Source: Arcobacter aquimarinus
GTDB lineage: Bacteria > Campylobacterota > Campylobacteria > Campylobacterales > Arcobacteraceae
Length of the DNA stretch: 64,000 nt
Assembly: GCF_013177635.1 (NCBI RefSeq)
Contig: NZ_CP030944.1
Coordinates: 2,418,001 to 2,482,000 of the forward strand
Reading direction: 5' to 3'
Below the pieces are notes generated by a model. It saw nothing but the letters and a program-made list of their open reading frames with translations. It did no database searches and was not told the origin of the DNA. A program made the translations under genes and the position numbers. This document shows positions 1 through 6,699 of the stretch, piece after piece. The first letter of the stretch is position 1. Each line of letters opens with the position of its first letter.

Positions 1-1160
1 ACTGCTGCTTTTTTACCCGATTTATATTTCCCTCTTTCAAATATATTTGAAAAAGTACTTCCTGGTAATTGATGTGTTTTTTTCATAAAAGTACCGATAA
101 CACGCTCGACTGCCCCACCAAATTCAGGACGTGCAACTGGACGATAGATATCTTCTATACCAAATTCACTACAAAAACCATGTAAACTTATTGACCTAAA
201 ATCTTTTCCATTGTCCATATGAATTTTGCGAGGCAATCCATATACAGGCCATTCTCCTGTAATACCATGTTGATTCAGAAAATCATCTTTTGGTAATACT
301 GCATTTAAAAAACATTGCCCTACACTAAAATAGCTTGGTGCATTTAATGAAATATAAAATCCATAAATCATTCTACTATACATATCAATAGCAACAGTGA
401 TAAATGGTCTTCCTATTTCTTCTCTTGTTTCCTCATCAACTAAAATTACATCAACTTTAGTATGATCAATTTGTATAATATCTAGAGGTAGTTTTACTTC
501 AGGAAATTTCCCAGGCATTCCTCTAGTTTCTCTTACACTAAGATTTTTTCTATGTTTTGCAATTAATTTAGGATTAATGTTATTAAGCCGATTCCTTATA
601 GCTCCTCTTTTAGGAATCTGAACATTAAATTTTTTACATTCATTTGCAATTACATTATAAATATTTGAAAATGGCAATTGCTGGTCATCTAAATAAACTT
701 CATTGATTATTGTATTTATAATTGCCTCTGTTTCTTGAGGAAATCTAGATTTTCCTTTACCTCCACAATTTTCTCTATTTCCAGCTAAGGAACTAACTGT
801 GCCAAACTTCTCAAAAGTTTCAATCCATCTATAAAGAGTTGCCATACCTTTTTTAAATTTTTTAGCTCGTTTTTCTACATCTTTAGCTGTTCTCTTCTCC
901 ATTTCAAGTAAAGGTTTAATTATTTCATACTTTTCATTTGCTTTATCTAGAGCTTTATCTCCATATTCAACTTGTGATTTTTCAGGTTCATTTGCATTTT
1001 TAGAATTTTTTATTAAATCATTTACTTTTACAATTATTTCTTCATAGGGACTAATACTCTTTTTTAATAAAACTTTATCAGCAGAAGGATAACTTTTTAT
1101 AATATATTCATTATCTTCATAAAATATTTTTGAGTTTATATTAAATTTAATTACTCCCAT
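1..1160 (-). CDS. tnsB: Tn7-like transposase TnsB (3' end beyond window)
   Basis: This is the integrase-type (DDE) transposase subunit that cuts and joins the 3' ends in Tn7-like transposition. Reading from an ATG at 1160, 386 codons are visible and the C-terminus runs off the left edge. An N-terminal helix-turn-helix-like part (residues about 60-200) precedes the rve/DDE core. The catalytic residues I can place are Asp232 (in IQIDHTKVD), Asp316 (in HMDNGKDF) and Glu352 (in GGAVERVIG), a DD(35)E arrangement, so the visible catalytic core looks intact. The start overlaps the end of tnsA by 14 nt, the usual tnsA-tnsB coupling. tnsC and any targeting genes would lie beyond the left edge. Confidence 0.93.
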   Translation of the reverse strand, partial: MGVIKFNINSKIFYEDNEYIIKSYPSADKVLLKKSISPYEEIIVKVNDLIKNSKNANEPEKSQVEYGDKALDKANEKYEIIKPLLEMEKRTAKDVEKRAKKFKKGMATLYRWIETFEKFGTVSSLAGNRENCGGKGKSRFPQETEAIINTIINEVYLDDQQLPFSNIYNVIANECKKFNVQIPKRGAIRNRLNNINPKLIAKHRKNLSVRETRGMPGKFPEVKLPLDIIQIDHTKVDVILVDEETREEIGRPFITVAIDMYSRMIYGFYISLNAPSYFSVGQCFLNAVLPKDDFLNQHGITGEWPVYGLPRKIHMDNGKDFRSISLHGFCSEFGIEDIYRPVARPEFGGAVERVIGTFMKKTHQLPGSTFSNIFERGKYKSGKKAA

Positions 1161-1818
1161 TATTTTTCTCCACAATAGATTTCATCGTGACTTTTTCATT
1201 TTCTAAATCAGTTTTTAAAATATTTTGAGCCACAAGTTTCCAAATATTATTTGAAACTATTTGATACTCACTTTGAGATTTCATAATTAAATTCGCAATT
1301 TCAAGTGCTGTCATTTTTTTGTCTTTTAAGACATCTAATATAATATCATCATACTTATCTTCAGAAGGATGAAGAATAAATCTGTACAAAAAATCAATAT
1401 TTGATATATAAATTTCATTAAAATTTAGTTCTGTTAGAAATTTAAAATCTACACCTATTTCATCAGATCTTATTTTTGCAGCATTAAATTTCTTTTCATA
1501 AATATCTTTATTTTTTTCAAATTCACTTAAGTATTTAACTTCAATAAGTGCATCTTTTAGATTTGATTTTTTACATCTTTTAACAAAACAATCTAGGTCA
1601 TACTTTTGTGGTTTACCATTTTTAATTATCATAATTCTTGGTTGTTCTCGGTAAGTTTCTACAGTATTATCAAATTCTAAAGAAAGGAAAAGTGTTTTTT
1701 CAAGTGAAGAGTCAAACCCAATAGATCTATTGTTTTTAACACTTGGGAAATGTCCCGTTACAGAACGATAGCTTTTTTTAATTTGTCTTTGTCCAAAAGT
1801 TATTGCATCATCATACAT
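1147..1818 (-). CDS. tnsA: Tn7-like endonuclease TnsA
   Basis: TnsA cuts the 5' ends of the transposon and works as a heteromeric transposase with TnsB. The 223-residue protein has a PD-(D/E)XK-like core: Glu40 (in SSLEKTLF), Asp76 (in YDLDCF), and Glu93/Lys95 (in LIEVKYL), matching the E-D-K pattern known for Tn7 TnsA. A helical C-terminal half (from about residue 130) corresponds to the TnsC-interacting domain of the family. It is immediately upstream of tnsB and overlaps it. In classical Tn7 the right transposon end lies just upstream of tnsA; here no obvious TGT/ACA terminus is visible between 1819 and 1972, so the end may be further right. Confidence 0.92.
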   Translation of the reverse strand: MYDDAITFGQRQIKKSYRSVTGHFPSVKNNRSIGFDSSLEKTLFLSLEFDNTVETYREQPRIMIIKNGKPQKYDLDCFVKRCKKSNLKDALIEVKYLSEFEKNKDIYEKKFNAAKIRSDEIGVDFKFLTELNFNEIYISNIDFLYRFILHPSEDKYDDIILDVLKDKKMTALEIANLIMKSQSEYQIVSNNIWKLVAQNILKTDLENEKVTMKSIVEKNNGSN

Positions 1819-1972
1819 AATTTATCCAAAGTAATTTTAATAAATTATAGTATAAATATTCTTTTATTAAAATATTAAAATTTTTCTTCGTATTATTAAT
1901 ATTTAATATGATTATATATCATTAATTTAAATTTAGCTATTATAATTGAAATTAAATATTGGTTAAAAAAAT

Positions 1973-4000
1973 ATGCATATTCAATCAACATTCATTCATT
2001 TAGATAAAATAGGAAAAAAATCAGAGAAAGAATTATGGGATAAAAATATTTTATCTTGGGAAGAATATCAAAACTACTATGAAAAAGATAACCTTTTCTT
2101 TGATTTTAAATCATCAAAGCTTTATGAATCTATAAATGCATATAATACTAGAGATATACAGTTTTTTACTAATGGACTACCAAATAATGAATACTACAGA
2201 TTAGCACTTTCTTTTCCTGAAGATGTAATTTTTTTAGATATTGAAACTACAGGCTTAAGTCATTACTATGACCACATTACAATGATTGGATGGAGTATTG
2301 GTGATGAATACAATTATTATGTAAATGGGATTTCAGATAAAGAAAAATTTAAAAACGATATGCTAAAAGCTAAAATCATTGTAACATTTAATGGTTCTAT
2401 GTTTGATATACCATTTATAAAAAAAGAATTTCCACATATTAATATCCCAAAATGCCATATTGATTTAAGATTTTTTTCCAAAAGAGTTGGACTATCAGGT
2501 GGTCAAAAGAAAATTGAAGATGAAATAAACTTTAAAAGGAATAAATCATTAAAAAATACAGATGGATATATGGCTACAATTTTATGGGATATGTATAAAT
2601 GGGGGAATAAACCCTCTCTAGAGAAGCTTATAGCTTACAATCATTCTGATATTGAAGGAATGAAAGCAATACTTGATTATTCAATTAAAGAAATTCATAA
2701 AAATTCTATTCTAAAAAAATATTTTAAAATACCATATAAATTTACAAGTAAAAAATCAAAATTAAAAAAACTAGAAATAAAAGAGTTTGTTAAAAATAAT
2801 AAAATACCATTTGACCCTAAATCAACATTAAAATATAATGAACTTTCATCAAGAATAAATAGAAATATAAAAATTGTAGGTATTGATTTAACAGGTAGTG
2901 AAGAAAGACTTACAGGTGTATGTTTAATGGATAACAATAATATAGAAACTATGCAAATAGGGACAGATAAAGATATGATTGAATGTATCTTAAAATTTAA
3001 ACCAGATTTAGTTTCAATAGATTCACCTCTATCATTACCCATTGGTAGAATTTCTGTATTTGATGATGATCCAGGAAGAGATGAATTTGGTATTTTAAGA
3101 GTTTGTGAACGTGTTTTAAAAAAAAGAGGAGTAAATGCCTATCCTACTTTATTACCAAGTATGCAAAAACTGACAAAAAGGGGAATAGAACTAGCTGATA
3201 AACTTAGAAAATTGGGTTTTCCTACAATAGAAAGTTATCCTGGTGTCGTTCAGGATATTATAGGATTGCCTAGAAAACAAGTTAGCCTTGATTTATTAAA
3301 AAAAGGATTAGGTAAGTTTGGTCTAAAAGGTGAATTTCTAAAAAAAGAAGTTAGTCATGATGAAATTGATGCAATTACTTCAGCAATAGTTGGGATGTTT
3401 TTTTTAAGTGGAGATTATGAAGGTATAGGTGATTTAAAAGAAAACTTAATGATTATTCCAAACTTAAAAGCCAAAAATAATCCCAGAAAAATTTTTGGAA
3501 TTGGTGGACAAATAGCTTCTGGTAAAACAACAGCTGCAGAAATATTAAAAGATAAGGGATATGAATATACTCGATATAGTCAAATACTCAAAGACATACT
3601 TAAAGAAAAAGGTGAAATAGTAAATAGAGATAATCTTCAAGCCCTTGGTTTAGAAATGAGTAAAAAGCAAACAGAGTTTTCAAAAAAACTTTTTGAAACT
3701 ATAAAAGACTTCAATTATGTTGTAATCGATGGCTTAAGATATCCTGAAGACTATACATTCTTTTTTGAAATGTACGGTTTTGATTTTAATTTTTTGTTTA
3801 TCGAAGCAGATGATAAATTAAAAGAAGCCAGATATATTTCTTTAGGAAACACAAAAGAAGACTATTTAAAAGCTATTTCAAATGATTCCGAAATAAACAT
3901 ACCTAAGTTAAAGCTTTTATCCAATAATATTATATATAATAATGAATCTATTGAAGTATTGAAAGATAAAGTCTATGAAATAATAGAGGAGCAAAAATAA
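1973..4000 (+). CDS. Triple fusion: YprB-like 3'-5' exonuclease / DUF429 / P-loop nucleotide kinase
   Basis: A 675-residue protein with three recognisable parts. Residues 1-250 resemble the YprB family of RNase H-fold exonucleases: DIETTG (Asp89, Glu91), FDIPF (Asp145) and YNHSD (Asp226) give a DEDD-like set. Residues about 299-480 match DUF429, a predicted RNase H-fold domain, with GIDLTG (Asp305), SIDSPLSLP (Asp350), a CER element, PSMQKLTKRG, SYPG and SHDEIDA. Residues about 505-675 are a small P-loop kinase (GIGGQIASGKTT, later VIDGLRYPED) resembling dephospho-CoA or dNMP kinases. Function is unknown; I infer handling of DNA or nucleotides. It heads a run of four genes and is followed after 1 nt by the PurZ-like gene. 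The Shine-Dalgarno before its ATG is weak, so the start is fairly but not fully certain. Confidence 0.8.
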   Translation: MHIQSTFIHLDKIGKKSEKELWDKNILSWEEYQNYYEKDNLFFDFKSSKLYESINAYNTRDIQFFTNGLPNNEYYRLALSFPEDVIFLDIETTGLSHYYDHITMIGWSIGDEYNYYVNGISDKEKFKNDMLKAKIIVTFNGSMFDIPFIKKEFPHINIPKCHIDLRFFSKRVGLSGGQKKIEDEINFKRNKSLKNTDGYMATILWDMYKWGNKPSLEKLIAYNHSDIEGMKAILDYSIKEIHKNSILKKYFKIPYKFTSKKSKLKKLEIKEFVKNNKIPFDPKSTLKYNELSSRINRNIKIVGIDLTGSEERLTGVCLMDNNNIETMQIGTDKDMIECILKFKPDLVSIDSPLSLPIGRISVFDDDPGRDEFGILRVCERVLKKRGVNAYPTLLPSMQKLTKRGIELADKLRKLGFPTIESYPGVVQDIIGLPRKQVSLDLLKKGLGKFGLKGEFLKKEVSHDEIDAITSAIVGMFFLSGDYEGIGDLKENLMIIPNLKAKNNPRKIFGIGGQIASGKTTAAEILKDKGYEYTRYSQILKDILKEKGEIVNRDNLQALGLEMSKKQTEFSKKLFETIKDFNYVVIDGLRYPEDYTFFFEMYGFDFNFLFIEADDKLKEARYISLGNTKEDYLKAISNDSEINIPKLKLLSNNIIYNNESIEVLKDKVYEIIEEQK

Positions 4001-4001
4001 A

Positions 4002-4967
4002 GTGAGTGTAACAATTGTAGTTGGTGGACAATATGGTGGAGAAGGTAAAGGTAAAGTAACATATTGTATTGCAAAAGAAAAAAATATCAGAATAGCAGTA
4101 AGAGTTGGAGGAACTAATTCTGGCCATACTGTAGTTGATGAAAACAATAATAAGTTTATTTTAAGGCAATTACCAACAACTGCTATTTTACCAAATTCTA
4201 TTTCAGTATTAAGTGCAGGAAGTTATATTGATTTAAATATATTAAAAGAAGAAATAAAATTAACAAAAATTTCTAATGATCAATTACTAATAGATGAAAA
4301 TGCCATGATTATTACAAATGAAGATCTAGAAAATGAAGCTTCTTCAGTATTAAGAAAAGAAATTGGTTCTACATTAAGTGGAACAGGGCAAAGTGTACTT
4401 AGAAGAATACAACGAAATAAGTCAACTAAACTTGCAAAAGATGTTGAAGAATTAAAACCTTTTATAAGCAATACAAAAGAGTTTTTATTTGAAAGAATAA
4501 TTAAAAAAGAAAAAATTATTATTGAAGGTACTCAAGGCTTTGGACTTTCTTTAATACATTCTCCACATTATCCATTCACAACATCTAGGGATACAACAGC
4601 AGCAGGCTTCTTATCAGAGGTTGGATTAAGTCCTTTTGATGTTGAAGATATTATTCTTGTAATAAGAACGTATCCTATTAGAGTTGAAGGTAATTCAGGT
4701 AAATTAGAAAATGAAATTTCTTGGGATGAGTTAGAGCAACTACCTGAATTTACCTCTGTTACAAAAAAAATGCGTAGAATTGCTAAATTTGATTCAAAAA
4801 TTGTTAAGAAGGCAATAATCGCAAATAGACCAACAAATATAGTTCTAAATCATCTTGATTATATAAATGAAGTAGATAGAATTAAATATTTAAAAGAGAT
4901 TGAAGAATCAATTGCACAAAAAGTTAATTATATAGGGTTAGATAATCAATGTATAACGAGCATATAA
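4002..4967 (+). CDS. Short adenylosuccinate-synthetase-like protein, PurZ-like
   Basis: 321 residues, close to archaeal PurA and phage PurZ and well short of the roughly 430 of bacterial PurA. Family motifs are clear: the P-loop at residues 8-18 (GGQYGGEGKGK), GGTNSGHT with the catalytic His42, GSTLSGTGQ, IIEGTQGFGLSL, YPFTTSRDTTA and TSVTKKMRRIAKFD. The residue aligning with the catalytic Asp13 of PurA (normally WGDEGKGK) is Gly13. Loss of that Asp is, as far as I recall, the hallmark separating PurZ (dGMP plus Asp to a succino-2-aminoadenine deoxynucleotide) from PurA. The start is GTG, after a GAGG at about 3988. The 3' end overlaps the next gene by 19 nt. It is probably not the housekeeping purA; the substrate is inferred. 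Confidence 0.82.
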   Translation: MSVTIVVGGQYGGEGKGKVTYCIAKEKNIRIAVRVGGTNSGHTVVDENNNKFILRQLPTTAILPNSISVLSAGSYIDLNILKEEIKLTKISNDQLLIDENAMIITNEDLENEASSVLRKEIGSTLSGTGQSVLRRIQRNKSTKLAKDVEELKPFISNTKEFLFERIIKKEKIIIEGTQGFGLSLIHSPHYPFTTSRDTTAAGFLSEVGLSPFDVEDIILVIRTYPIRVEGNSGKLENEISWDELEQLPEFTSVTKKMRRIAKFDSKIVKKAIIANRPTNIVLNHLDYINEVDRIKYLKEIEESIAQKVNYIGLDNQCITSI

Positions 4968-5935
4968 CTTTACAATATAAAAGTTTATTAGAAGAATTAA
5001 GACCTAATGAGATAAATAAACTTTCTCTTGAAGATCAAAATGATATTGCACAAAATAAATATGATTATTATAAAATTAAAGATCCATATCCTGAAATATC
5101 TCCCGCATTATTAAATCCTTATGATATTGATAAATATATAAATAAAACTGGAATGATTTTTCCTTATGAAAGAGATAATTTAAAAACAGCAACCTACAGA
5201 ATTCCATTATATGGAGATATTCATTATTGGGAGAATAATAGTAGAAAAAAGAAAACTCTTTCTAAAGATAAAAAAGATATATTCATTTTAAAACCTAATG
5301 CAATTATATATATACATATTTCAACAGTCTTTAGAGTTCCATATTATATAGCATTTAGATTTAATTTAAAAATTGATTTAGTACATAAAGGTTTATTATT
5401 AGGAACTGGGCCTGTTGTCGACCCTGGTTTTCAAGGTAGAATTATGATACCTATTCATAATTTAACTGCAAATGAGTATATATTGAGATCTGGAGATGGA
5501 TTAATATGGATAGAATTCACTAAACTAAGTCCATTTAAAGAAGATAAACCTTTTAGTGAATTTAAATCTTTATTAAATCATACAGCAGATGATTATTTTG
5601 AATCAGCAAATAAATTAAGGAGTATTCAAAGTGCAATTCCAAATGCTATGGATAAAGCAAAAGAAGATGCAAAACAAGCTAAAGAAGATGCAGAAGCTGC
5701 ACATAGTGCAGTAAAACTCATCTCATTTGCTACAGTTATTGCAGCTGTAATTGCTATTGGTGGAATTATCTATTCAGGGTATACATTATTAGCAAATGTA
5801 ATAACACCTACTATAAGTTTAGTTGATTCTCAAAAAGAACAGTTATTAAAAAATGAAGATGAAATTAAAAAATTAAATGCTAAATTAAAATTAATTGAGG
5901 AAAAATTAACAAAAGTTAAAAAAAATGAAGAATAG
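4949..5935 (+). CDS. Membrane-anchored dCTP deaminase/dUTPase-fold protein
   Basis: 328 residues. Residues about 60-215 have the trimeric dCTP deaminase/dUTPase fold, best seen in VVDPGFQGRIMIPIHN (about 155-170) and the following ILRSGDGLIWIEF. Where bacterial dCTP deaminases have a catalytic Glu shortly after the PG(F/W)xG motif I read Pro, so classical deamination is doubtful; a dUTPase-like or nucleotide-sensing role is possible. A short Ala/Lys-rich coiled region (about 225-245) leads to one hydrophobic membrane segment (about 249-278, with FATVIAAVIAIGGIIYSG). A Lys/Glu-rich coiled-coil tail follows, and there is no signal peptide. The gene overlaps both neighbours (19 and 11 nt), indicating coupled translation with the PurZ-like and kinase genes. 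Confidence 0.75.
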   Translation: MYNEHITLQYKSLLEELRPNEINKLSLEDQNDIAQNKYDYYKIKDPYPEISPALLNPYDIDKYINKTGMIFPYERDNLKTATYRIPLYGDIHYWENNSRKKKTLSKDKKDIFILKPNAIIYIHISTVFRVPYYIAFRFNLKIDLVHKGLLLGTGPVVDPGFQGRIMIPIHNLTANEYILRSGDGLIWIEFTKLSPFKEDKPFSEFKSLLNHTADDYFESANKLRSIQSAIPNAMDKAKEDAKQAKEDAEAAHSAVKLISFATVIAAVIAIGGIIYSGYTLLANVITPTISLVDSQKEQLLKNEDEIKKLNAKLKLIEEKLTKVKKNEE

Positions 5936-6521
5936 AAGAATTGAAATTTGTGGTGGTATTGCATCAGGTAAAACATCTCTTACAAAATTACTTGAAAATA
6001 ATAATTTAGGAACACCTATATATGAAAATTTTGAAGAAAATCCTTTTTGGAAACCTTTCTATGAAAATCCTGGAAAGTATATTTTTGAAACAGAAATCTC
6101 TTTCACTCTTCAGCATTATCATGAAATAAAAAAATTAAATCAATCTAACTTATTAATATGTGACTATTCTCTTCTTTTAGACCATGCATATGCAATGATA
6201 GGATTAACAGGTAAAAAATTGGAATTATATCTACAACTAATTCAAGAAATATATAATGATATTTCAACACCTGAATTAATCATATATTTAAAATGTAGTG
6301 CAGATGAAGAACTAAATAGAATTAAAAATAGAAATCGATCTGTTGAAACAAATATAGAACTTTCTTTTTTAGAACTTTTAAATAATGCTATTAATAAAGA
6401 TATAAAAAAAGAAAATAAAATATTAACAATTGATAGTGAAAAGTATAATTTTGTAGATAATGAAAATGATAAGAAGCACATTATAAGCTTAATAAAAGAT
6501 GAAATTAATAGTTTATTATAA
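5925..6521 (+). CDS. Deoxynucleoside kinase family protein
   Basis: 198 residues of the dNK family (deoxyadenosine/deoxyguanosine/thymidine-2 type kinases), which phosphorylate deoxynucleosides to dNMPs. Visible are the P-loop GGIASGKTS (residues 10-18), the family stretch ENFEENPFWKPFYENP with the substrate-base Glu, CDYSLLLD where the family usually has DRS, and a lid region LNRIKNRNRS with clustered basic residues. The ATG at 5925 lies inside the last codons of the preceding gene, so it is the distal gene of the four-gene unit. A hairpin at 6700-6729 is the probable terminator. The specificity (dA, dG or other) cannot be read from sequence alone. Confidence 0.82.
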   Translation: MKNRRIEICGGIASGKTSLTKLLENNNLGTPIYENFEENPFWKPFYENPGKYIFETEISFTLQHYHEIKKLNQSNLLICDYSLLLDHAYAMIGLTGKKLELYLQLIQEIYNDISTPELIIYLKCSADEELNRIKNRNRSVETNIELSFLELLNNAINKDIKKENKILTIDSEKYNFVDNENDKKHIISLIKDEINSLL

Positions 6522-6586
6522 AAAATTCAGATAGAAAAACTAGAAAGTATTTTAATTAGTCATTATCAATTTTTAATATATACATT

Positions 6587-6600
6587 AATATGTACATATT
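6587..6600. promoter_or_regulatory. 14-bp perfect palindrome downstream of the nucleotide cassette
   Basis: AATATGTACATATT is a perfect dyad in the spacer between the kinase gene and the convergent thioredoxin gene. It is followed by a possible -10 (TACAAT, 6615-6620) and two small hairpins before the terminator. It could be an operator or a transposon-end element; neither is proven. Confidence 0.35.
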
Positions 6601-6699
6601 TAACTAATTTATAGTACAATCCTTTATTAAGGTAGGTATTAGGAGAAAAACTTATTCTCAAATTTTAATGAATATGACAATGTTCAGCAAAAAACAATA

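Follow-up and report, generated by a model that had tools for sequence, protein, structure and literature searches.

A four-gene operon within a Tn7-like transposon

The window, that is, the whole stretch of 64,000 nucleotides of Arcobacter aquimarinus DNA that was analysed (NZ_CP030944.1, positions 2,418,001 to 2,482,000), opens inside a Tn7-like transposon. Between tnsA and the right end of this element lie four genes, A to D, all on the plus strand; A and B are 1 base apart, B and C overlap by 19 bases, and C and D by 11. The features, in window coordinates, are:

1-6679, unstranded: window part of the Tn7-like transposon (17,194 bp, genome C1:2407486-2424679; from its ends, the duplication and an empty site), with the right terminus TGACA at 6675-6679
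3-1175, minus strand: tnsB-like transposase, 633 aa in the genome and truncated here by the edge of the window (assigned by eye, from the sequence and the position between tnsA and tnsC)
1147-1818, minus strand: tnsA-like endonuclease (Pfam PF08722, 5.2e-08; NCBIfam TnsA_like, 1.2e-08, below its cut-off)
1973-4000, plus strand: gene A, with an RNase_H_2 exonuclease (residues 86-235), a DUF429-like middle (about 298-496) and a dNMP-kinase-like C-terminus (about 500-675) (Pfam, PHROGs)
4002-4967, plus strand: gene B, PurZ-clade adenylosuccinate-synthetase-like enzyme with Gly13, 321 aa, GTG start
4023-4055, plus strand: P-loop GGQYGGEGKGK, gene B residues 8-18, with the Gly13 codon at 4038-4040
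4949-5935, plus strand: gene C, dCTP-deaminase-fold (DCD) protein with a C-terminal membrane segment and a coiled-coil-like end (Pfam DCD, 7.7e-07)
5123-5530, plus strand: DCD domain of gene C, residues 59-194, lacking two motifs, RSS and Glu, that solved dCTP deaminases have
5717-5773, plus strand: residues 257-275 of gene C, a predicted membrane segment (19 residues with a mean hydropathy of 2.4)
5925-6521, plus strand: gene D, deoxynucleoside kinase (Pfam dNK, 5.3e-28)
6561-6579, minus strand: end repeat, TnsB-site-like, 17/19 to the consensus from the left end
6653-6671, minus strand: end repeat, TnsB-site-like, in the right terminus, 17/19 to the consensus from the left end
6680-6684, unstranded: 5-bp target site duplication ATGTT, the same as the left-end copy

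Both transposon ends begin TGTCA and are flanked on each side by ATGTT; the 19-bp repeats, inverted relative to each other, lie at the two outer edges, and the uninterrupted target site is present in a relative (G350), where 605/605 bases aligned at 96.2%. Upstream of the operon, on the opposite strand, are TnsA, TnsB, TnsC and TniQ and then a GajB-like helicase; tnsA was named by Pfam, and tnsB, tnsC and tniQ by eye. With the bounds of the element mapped to 2407486-2424679, the operon is cargo between tnsA and the right end. The original prediction had placed gene B next to a transposon; a transposon is indeed present, but gene B lies inside it. The single 2.52-Mb contig and the empty site in the relative speak against chance or contamination. 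The GajB-like helicase, of the UvrD kind, scored 6.2e-68; the transposon also carries a type II methyltransferase (MTase_II, 2.5e-111; both PADLOC), and the further upstream genes in the element gave no PADLOC match. The left end (C1:2407486; L117 7486-7507) falls in the 3' end of an mnmG-like gene (by eye), to which the left terminus supplies the last codons and the stop; it may be the attachment site.

Gene A matched RNase_H_2 in Pfam (9.1e-28) and the dNMP kinase family PHROG_139 (2.2e-13). Its middle part is 53% identical to a Dyadobacter protein, which itself matched DUF429 at 4.7e-04, below the cut-off. No relative of gene A was matched in 50,697 phage records. The nearest solved relatives of gene D are the deoxynucleoside kinase 8puu (1e-11) and the deoxyguanosine kinases 2jas (2.7e-09) and 2jaq. 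PADLOC returned no full-length match for any of the four operon genes. As foreseen for DatZ and MazZ, neither of these partners nor DpoZ was recognised among the operon genes with Pfam, NCBIfam or PHROGs; a weak exonuclease-domain match to DpoZ reached 14.2 bits against a cut-off of 500. Nor did the family searches recognise a polymerase domain or an enzyme that removes dATP among the operon genes.

Gene B falls in the PurZ clade

Residues 6-19 of gene B, translated from the window, read VVGGQYGGEGKGKV. In the alignment, Gly13 stands opposite Asp13 of PurA, and Lys16, Asn39, His42, Thr124, Arg138, Gln178, Thr194, Arg227, Arg258/259 and the TSVT loop are all kept. Translation and alignment thus confirm what had been read from the letters, namely a glycine at the catalytic Asp13 position within the P-loop GGQYGGEGKGK, a length of 321 residues (4002-4967), and retention of His42 and the aspartate-binding TSVT region. 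Across a 70-row alignment, the PurA Asp13 column is Asp in all 10 PurA-type rows, Gly in two (window gene B and its relative in genome G042) and Ser in 58, a Ser count that is biased among the viral-contig PurZ rows because these came from a pattern scan requiring [SG] at position 13. Pattern-free tblastn contributed seven named phage rows and nine plasmid rows with Ser13. Gene B also has the insertion typical of PurZ, PIRVEGNSGKLENEISW, which follows a conserved Val (Val228) close to the 2' position; the longer loop is present in 60/60 non-PurA rows and 0/10 PurA-type rows. The accessible part of PMC8342488 describes a PurZ-specific longer loop that follows a Val crowding the 2' position.

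A maximum likelihood tree was built from 64 rows, six near-copies having been dropped from the 70-row alignment. The PurZ rows form a clade of 54 with 100/99 support that includes gene B and zero PurA-type rows. Such a tree had been named beforehand as the test that could refute a PurZ-like rather than PurA assignment, and it upholds the assignment. Gene B and the G042 protein form a 100/99 pair (68% identity over 320 columns) within an eight-row subclade (99/96) of virus PurZ and Sinorhizobium medicae sequences. Gene B lacks the catalytic Asp13 of PurA and does not lie among the PurA rows. Family scores were 265.6 bits for the NCBIfam archaeal-type adenylosuccinate synthetase (below the cut-off of 368), 250.8 bits for the NCBIfam PurZ family NF038379 (below the curated cut-off of 300) and 3.4e-75 for the PHROGs phage '2-aminooxy adenylosuccinate synthetase' family. 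The best solved sequence match is PurZ0 (7vf6, 2e-47). The predicted structure (pLDDT 88.1, from a 21-row alignment) matched P. horikoshii PurA with Z 40.0 and PurZ0 with Z 39.1; because the two tie, the fold is no evidence either way.

Gene B shares with PurZ and PurZ0 of Z-genome phages (S-2L, phiVC8, Archimedes) its clade, the loop after Val228, the loss of Asp13 and the overall fold, but differs from them in having Gly13 rather than Ser and in its setting, a bacterial transposon operon with gene A, a DCD-membrane protein and a deoxynucleoside kinase. It resembles archaeal-type PurA (P. horikoshii) in its short length and fold (Z 40.0), yet lies outside that part of the tree and differs from the PurA-type rows, with their Asp13 and short loop. 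In the sections of PMC12884076 available, Ser occupies the Asp13 position in all 147 phage PurZ sequences, no exception being given, and four archaeal PurZ-like sequences have Ser or Gly. Since gene B has Gly in place of the phage-type Ser, and its archaeal relatives either residue, we call it 'PurZ-clade' and not a proven PurZ.

When the S-2L contacts were mapped onto gene B, those of the base pocket were kept except for Ser23, which is Gly13, and Ala50, which is Ser40; several nucleotide-base contacts differ. Gln308 of S-2L corresponds to Asp286, and the host's own PurA and PurZ0 likewise have Asp. Retention of this base-binding Asp suggests that GTP is the co-substrate. Gly13 is neither the PurA Asp nor the phage Ser, and the predicted catalysis could consequently be altered or lost. 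In another explanation, the PurZ-clade protein might have no activity of its own and instead sense infection by binding dGMP or dNTPs, controlling the exonuclease or gene C in response. Such a pseudoenzyme would fit with the glycine of the two full operons, which leaves no side chain where PurA has Asp and phage PurZ has Ser, but most of the other mapped substrate-contact residues are kept and the S. medicae PurZ has Ser, and we consider it unlikely.

The clade of gene B, and the role of PurZ in phages as given in the accessible parts of PMC8342488 and PMC12884076, also raise the idea that the operon substitutes 2-aminoadenine into the DNA of the element or host, as camouflage or anti-restriction. 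The operon has neither a polymerase domain nor a recognised dATP-removing enzyme, however, and replication of the host would need uptake of Z genome-wide; we give this explanation very little chance.

Since the host, whose genome is a single contig of 2,520,808 bases, already has a full-length purA and a purB, gene B is an extra gene. The tree and the host's own purA speak against a housekeeping second PurA. Two archaeal loci (L004 and L005, 39 and 35% identity) that were considered as PurZ proved to be plain PurA from their Asp13 and tree position. The Rhizobium leguminosarum candidate (L032) was also set aside, as an archaeal-type PurA in a 7-deazapurine cluster. On that plasmid (7309-15656) the PurA homologue accompanies folE, queE, queC, a carboxytetrahydropterin synthase gene, IMPDH and purB, and the cluster presumably resembles a toyocamycin-type one. 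Amongst the viral rows, one IMG/VR contig (L034 7104-9835) has low-complexity, non-phage-like sequence after its PurZ gene and is possibly chimaeric or mislabelled.

Gene C has a DCD fold without the deaminase motifs

A seven-row family profile of gene C matched solved DCD/dUTPase structures, reaching 1.6e-21 to 8y1w. The solved dCTP deaminases 4xjc and 4a6a have RSS or KSS, and Glu before a conserved Asn, where window gene C has FNL and Pro; we take the RSS motif and this Glu to be catalytic in dCTP deaminases. RSS is absent from 6/6 distinct DCD-membrane proteins aligned. The solved 8y1w and 9ln0 also have no Glu before the Asn but keep RSS, and the missing RSS is thus the stronger sign. From these motifs we infer that gene C is a receptor and not an enzyme. 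A single-sequence AlphaFold model of gene C had a pLDDT of 39.5 and was set aside; the membrane role is predicted from hydropathy. Hits to S_4TM, ZorA and CorA among the gene C proteins (E 0.0005 to 0.005) were taken as coiled-coil or membrane noise. Fifteen stretches in viral contigs fitted a gene C pattern, none of them a relative.

Gene C (4949-5935) is the sole DCD-family match in the host genome. Elsewhere, DCD-fold proteins that have membrane segments but no neighbouring PurZ were seen: one in Sinorhizobium meliloti KH46 (L120 6827-7732), beside restriction/methylase-like genes (by eye), and one in Priestia (L121 6986-7774). RSS is missing from both.

Relatives of the operon on other mobile elements

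A genome of the same order and another family, G042, carries all four genes, likewise arranged A to D, beside a tyrosine-integrase-like gene (by eye). Between the window and G042, gene A is 68% identical, and its DUF429-like part 84% (blastp). Gene C is the most diverged of the operon genes, at 24% overall, and has two hydrophobic segments in the G042 form against one in the window. With the window's own genome counted each time, copies were found in 1/104 genomes of the family (E <= 1e-28), 2/348 of the order (above the PurA level) and 1/397 of the phylum (E <= 1e-35); these genome sets overlap, and the kinship searches cover this phylum.

On S. medicae plasmids, PurZ (with Ser13) and gene C form an overlapping pair (three records matched, two of them read), and this gene C is 34% identical to that of the window over its length. 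The pair of PurZ-clade and DCD-membrane genes is found on three kinds of mobile element, a Tn7-like transposon, an integrase island and a plasmid, beside known defence systems. In the tree, however, PurZ of S. medicae joins two viral contigs (96/96) rather than the window/G042 proteins, so the pairing of PurZ with gene C may not have a single origin. On pMl5, a complete BilABCD follows the pair (1.6e-51 to 1.6e-170). A divergent HD protein near the S. medicae pair (L028 8236-8838) resembles phage dNMP phosphatases (8e-59). Because Dmp enzymes are a phage counter-weapon to the Kongming system, as reported in the accessible part of PMC12948488, this HD gene could serve as a safety valve.

These comparisons bear on a further explanation, that dZTP or its succino form would flood the infected cell as a poison and spoil phage DNA synthesis, with gene C tethering or limiting the pathway and sensing nothing. 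The operon does have a ligase and the two kinase-like parts that a higher phosphate would require, and a Z gene triad was toxic when expressed in E. coli according to the part of PMC8342488 available. This leaves unexplained why the one partner kept by the S. medicae PurZ is a DCD-fold membrane protein without catalytic motifs, and why the window and G042 differ most in gene C. We regard a poison as improbable.

A second bacterial PurZ family and its defence neighbourhood

A kinase-PurZ fusion was found on eight rhizobial and Methylobacterium plasmid records; in the tree it makes up a separate clade (100/99) close to viral rows of about the same length. The records of this second module are L126 99-9681, L029 7380-11943, L123, L124, L125, L031, L030 and L122; on the viral contigs L049, L050, L054, L060 and L072 the PurZ frames are 527-561 aa, about the length of the rhizobial fusion, and lie on the same tree branch. 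At A. rubi, the one locus tested, the fusion is followed by a DUF7002 protein (2.6e-67) and an HD dNMP-phosphatase-like protein (6.5e-63). A 450-500 aa protein of the rhizobial module gave no Pfam match (one locus tested). Outside S. medicae, a DCD gene lies near the rhizobial modules at one of the seven annotated loci (A. rubi); mostly there is none.

Named defence genes occur in the fetched flanks of 4/7 annotated plasmid PurZ loci (S. medicae, A. fabrum, Kim5 and CB3171). In A. fabrum, Gabija lies upstream of the kinase-PurZ module (2.6e-203 and 8e-181, fetched flank); the locus of Rhizobium sp. CB3171 has AbiE, SIR2 and DUF87 genes nearby, and that of Kim5 has AbiJ-NTD4 and RelA/SpoT genes. 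None was found by product name or PADLOC in the fetched flanks at A. rubi, NLR16a and Norway. As a control, 50-kb stretches were taken from the same rhizobial plasmids, three in all with 126 annotated genes; they held no named defence system, only two antitoxin genes and one methyltransferase. This control is small, its stretches were chosen by the authors, and PLSDB product names are incomplete. The seven loci do not include the unannotated L030, L122 and L127, the eight records H42-H49 (one of which, L032, was read as plain PurA) or the ordinary PurA matches H50-H68. The original prediction did not include the four-gene operon or the copy of it in another lineage, nor the relatives in Sinorhizobium and rhizobia or the defence-island setting.

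The neighbourhood also bears on a metabolic explanation, in which the operon would perform nucleotide salvage, or use a repurposed adenylosuccinate synthetase in ordinary metabolism, on a mobile element. Kinases do stand together with a PurA-fold enzyme, and the genome supplies purB; but a full-length purA is already present in the host, the operon is rare and patchy (1/104 family genomes, 2/348 order genomes), and PurZ loci are repeatedly placed beside defence genes. It is, in our view, quite improbable.

A possible nucleotide signal in anti-phage defence

We favour, at a probability of roughly 45%, a mobile four-gene anti-phage operon around a phage-derived PurZ, in which an unusual deoxynucleotide would be sensed by a pseudo-DCD protein and would trigger a membrane effector. 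By analogy with Kongming, phage nucleases or the operon's own exonuclease would degrade DNA to dNMPs and deoxynucleosides, and the exonuclease and the deoxynucleoside kinase would supply dGMP to PurZ. From dGMP and aspartate, probably with GTP, PurZ may then make N6-succino-2-aminodeoxyadenylate, which host PurB would convert to dZMP and the kinase part of gene A would raise towards the triphosphate. The unusual nucleotide would bind to gene C at its DCD-fold domain, itself presumably without catalytic activity, and the membrane segment would act at the membrane to halt the infected cell, presumably by killing it. The candidate signals are dSMP, dZMP and dZTP, and the candidate receptor is gene C. 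That a phage Z-DNA enzyme has been turned into an immune signal generator, with dZTP or its succinylated precursor as the second messenger for a dead DCD-fold receptor and membrane effector, is put forward more tentatively. If true, the chemistry of an alternative DNA letter would have been borrowed for immunity. Finding a PurZ homologue in bacterial DNA is also not necessarily a sign of a Z-phage. No report of a bacterial PurZ operon or of a defence role was found in the literature searched, which comprised titles and the starts of abstracts among the matches listed and few subscription papers.

Kongming offers the closest comparison in logic. An adenosine-type deaminase and SIR2, which we take to be among the domain types of its KomA, KomB and NAD-depleting KomC, are absent from the four operon genes (Pfam). 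In the accessible part of PMC12948488, its messenger dITP is made from phage dAMP with dNMP kinases. The proposed logic is alike in that an unusual deoxynucleotide is made from a dNMP, raised by kinases, bound by a receptor and coupled to an effector (PMC12948488, in the part available). Unlike Kongming, of which no part was seen here, the operon has an enzyme of the PurZ ligase clade, a DCD-fold candidate receptor and a membrane segment in place of NAD depletion; the Kongming kinase is supplied by the phage, whereas here the kinase is within the operon. The deoxynucleotide-pool theme is shared with dCTP deaminase defence proteins and with Clover, which senses dTTP according to the available part of PMC12265719; in contrast to these, the DCD protein here is without the motifs of the true enzymes, and the operon has no dGTPase. 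Another nucleotide-signal setting was noted on a Dyadobacter plasmid (L119 5444-7606), where a stand-alone DUF429-like protein comes right after a diadenylate cyclase bearing DACNG/DACNH sensor domains.
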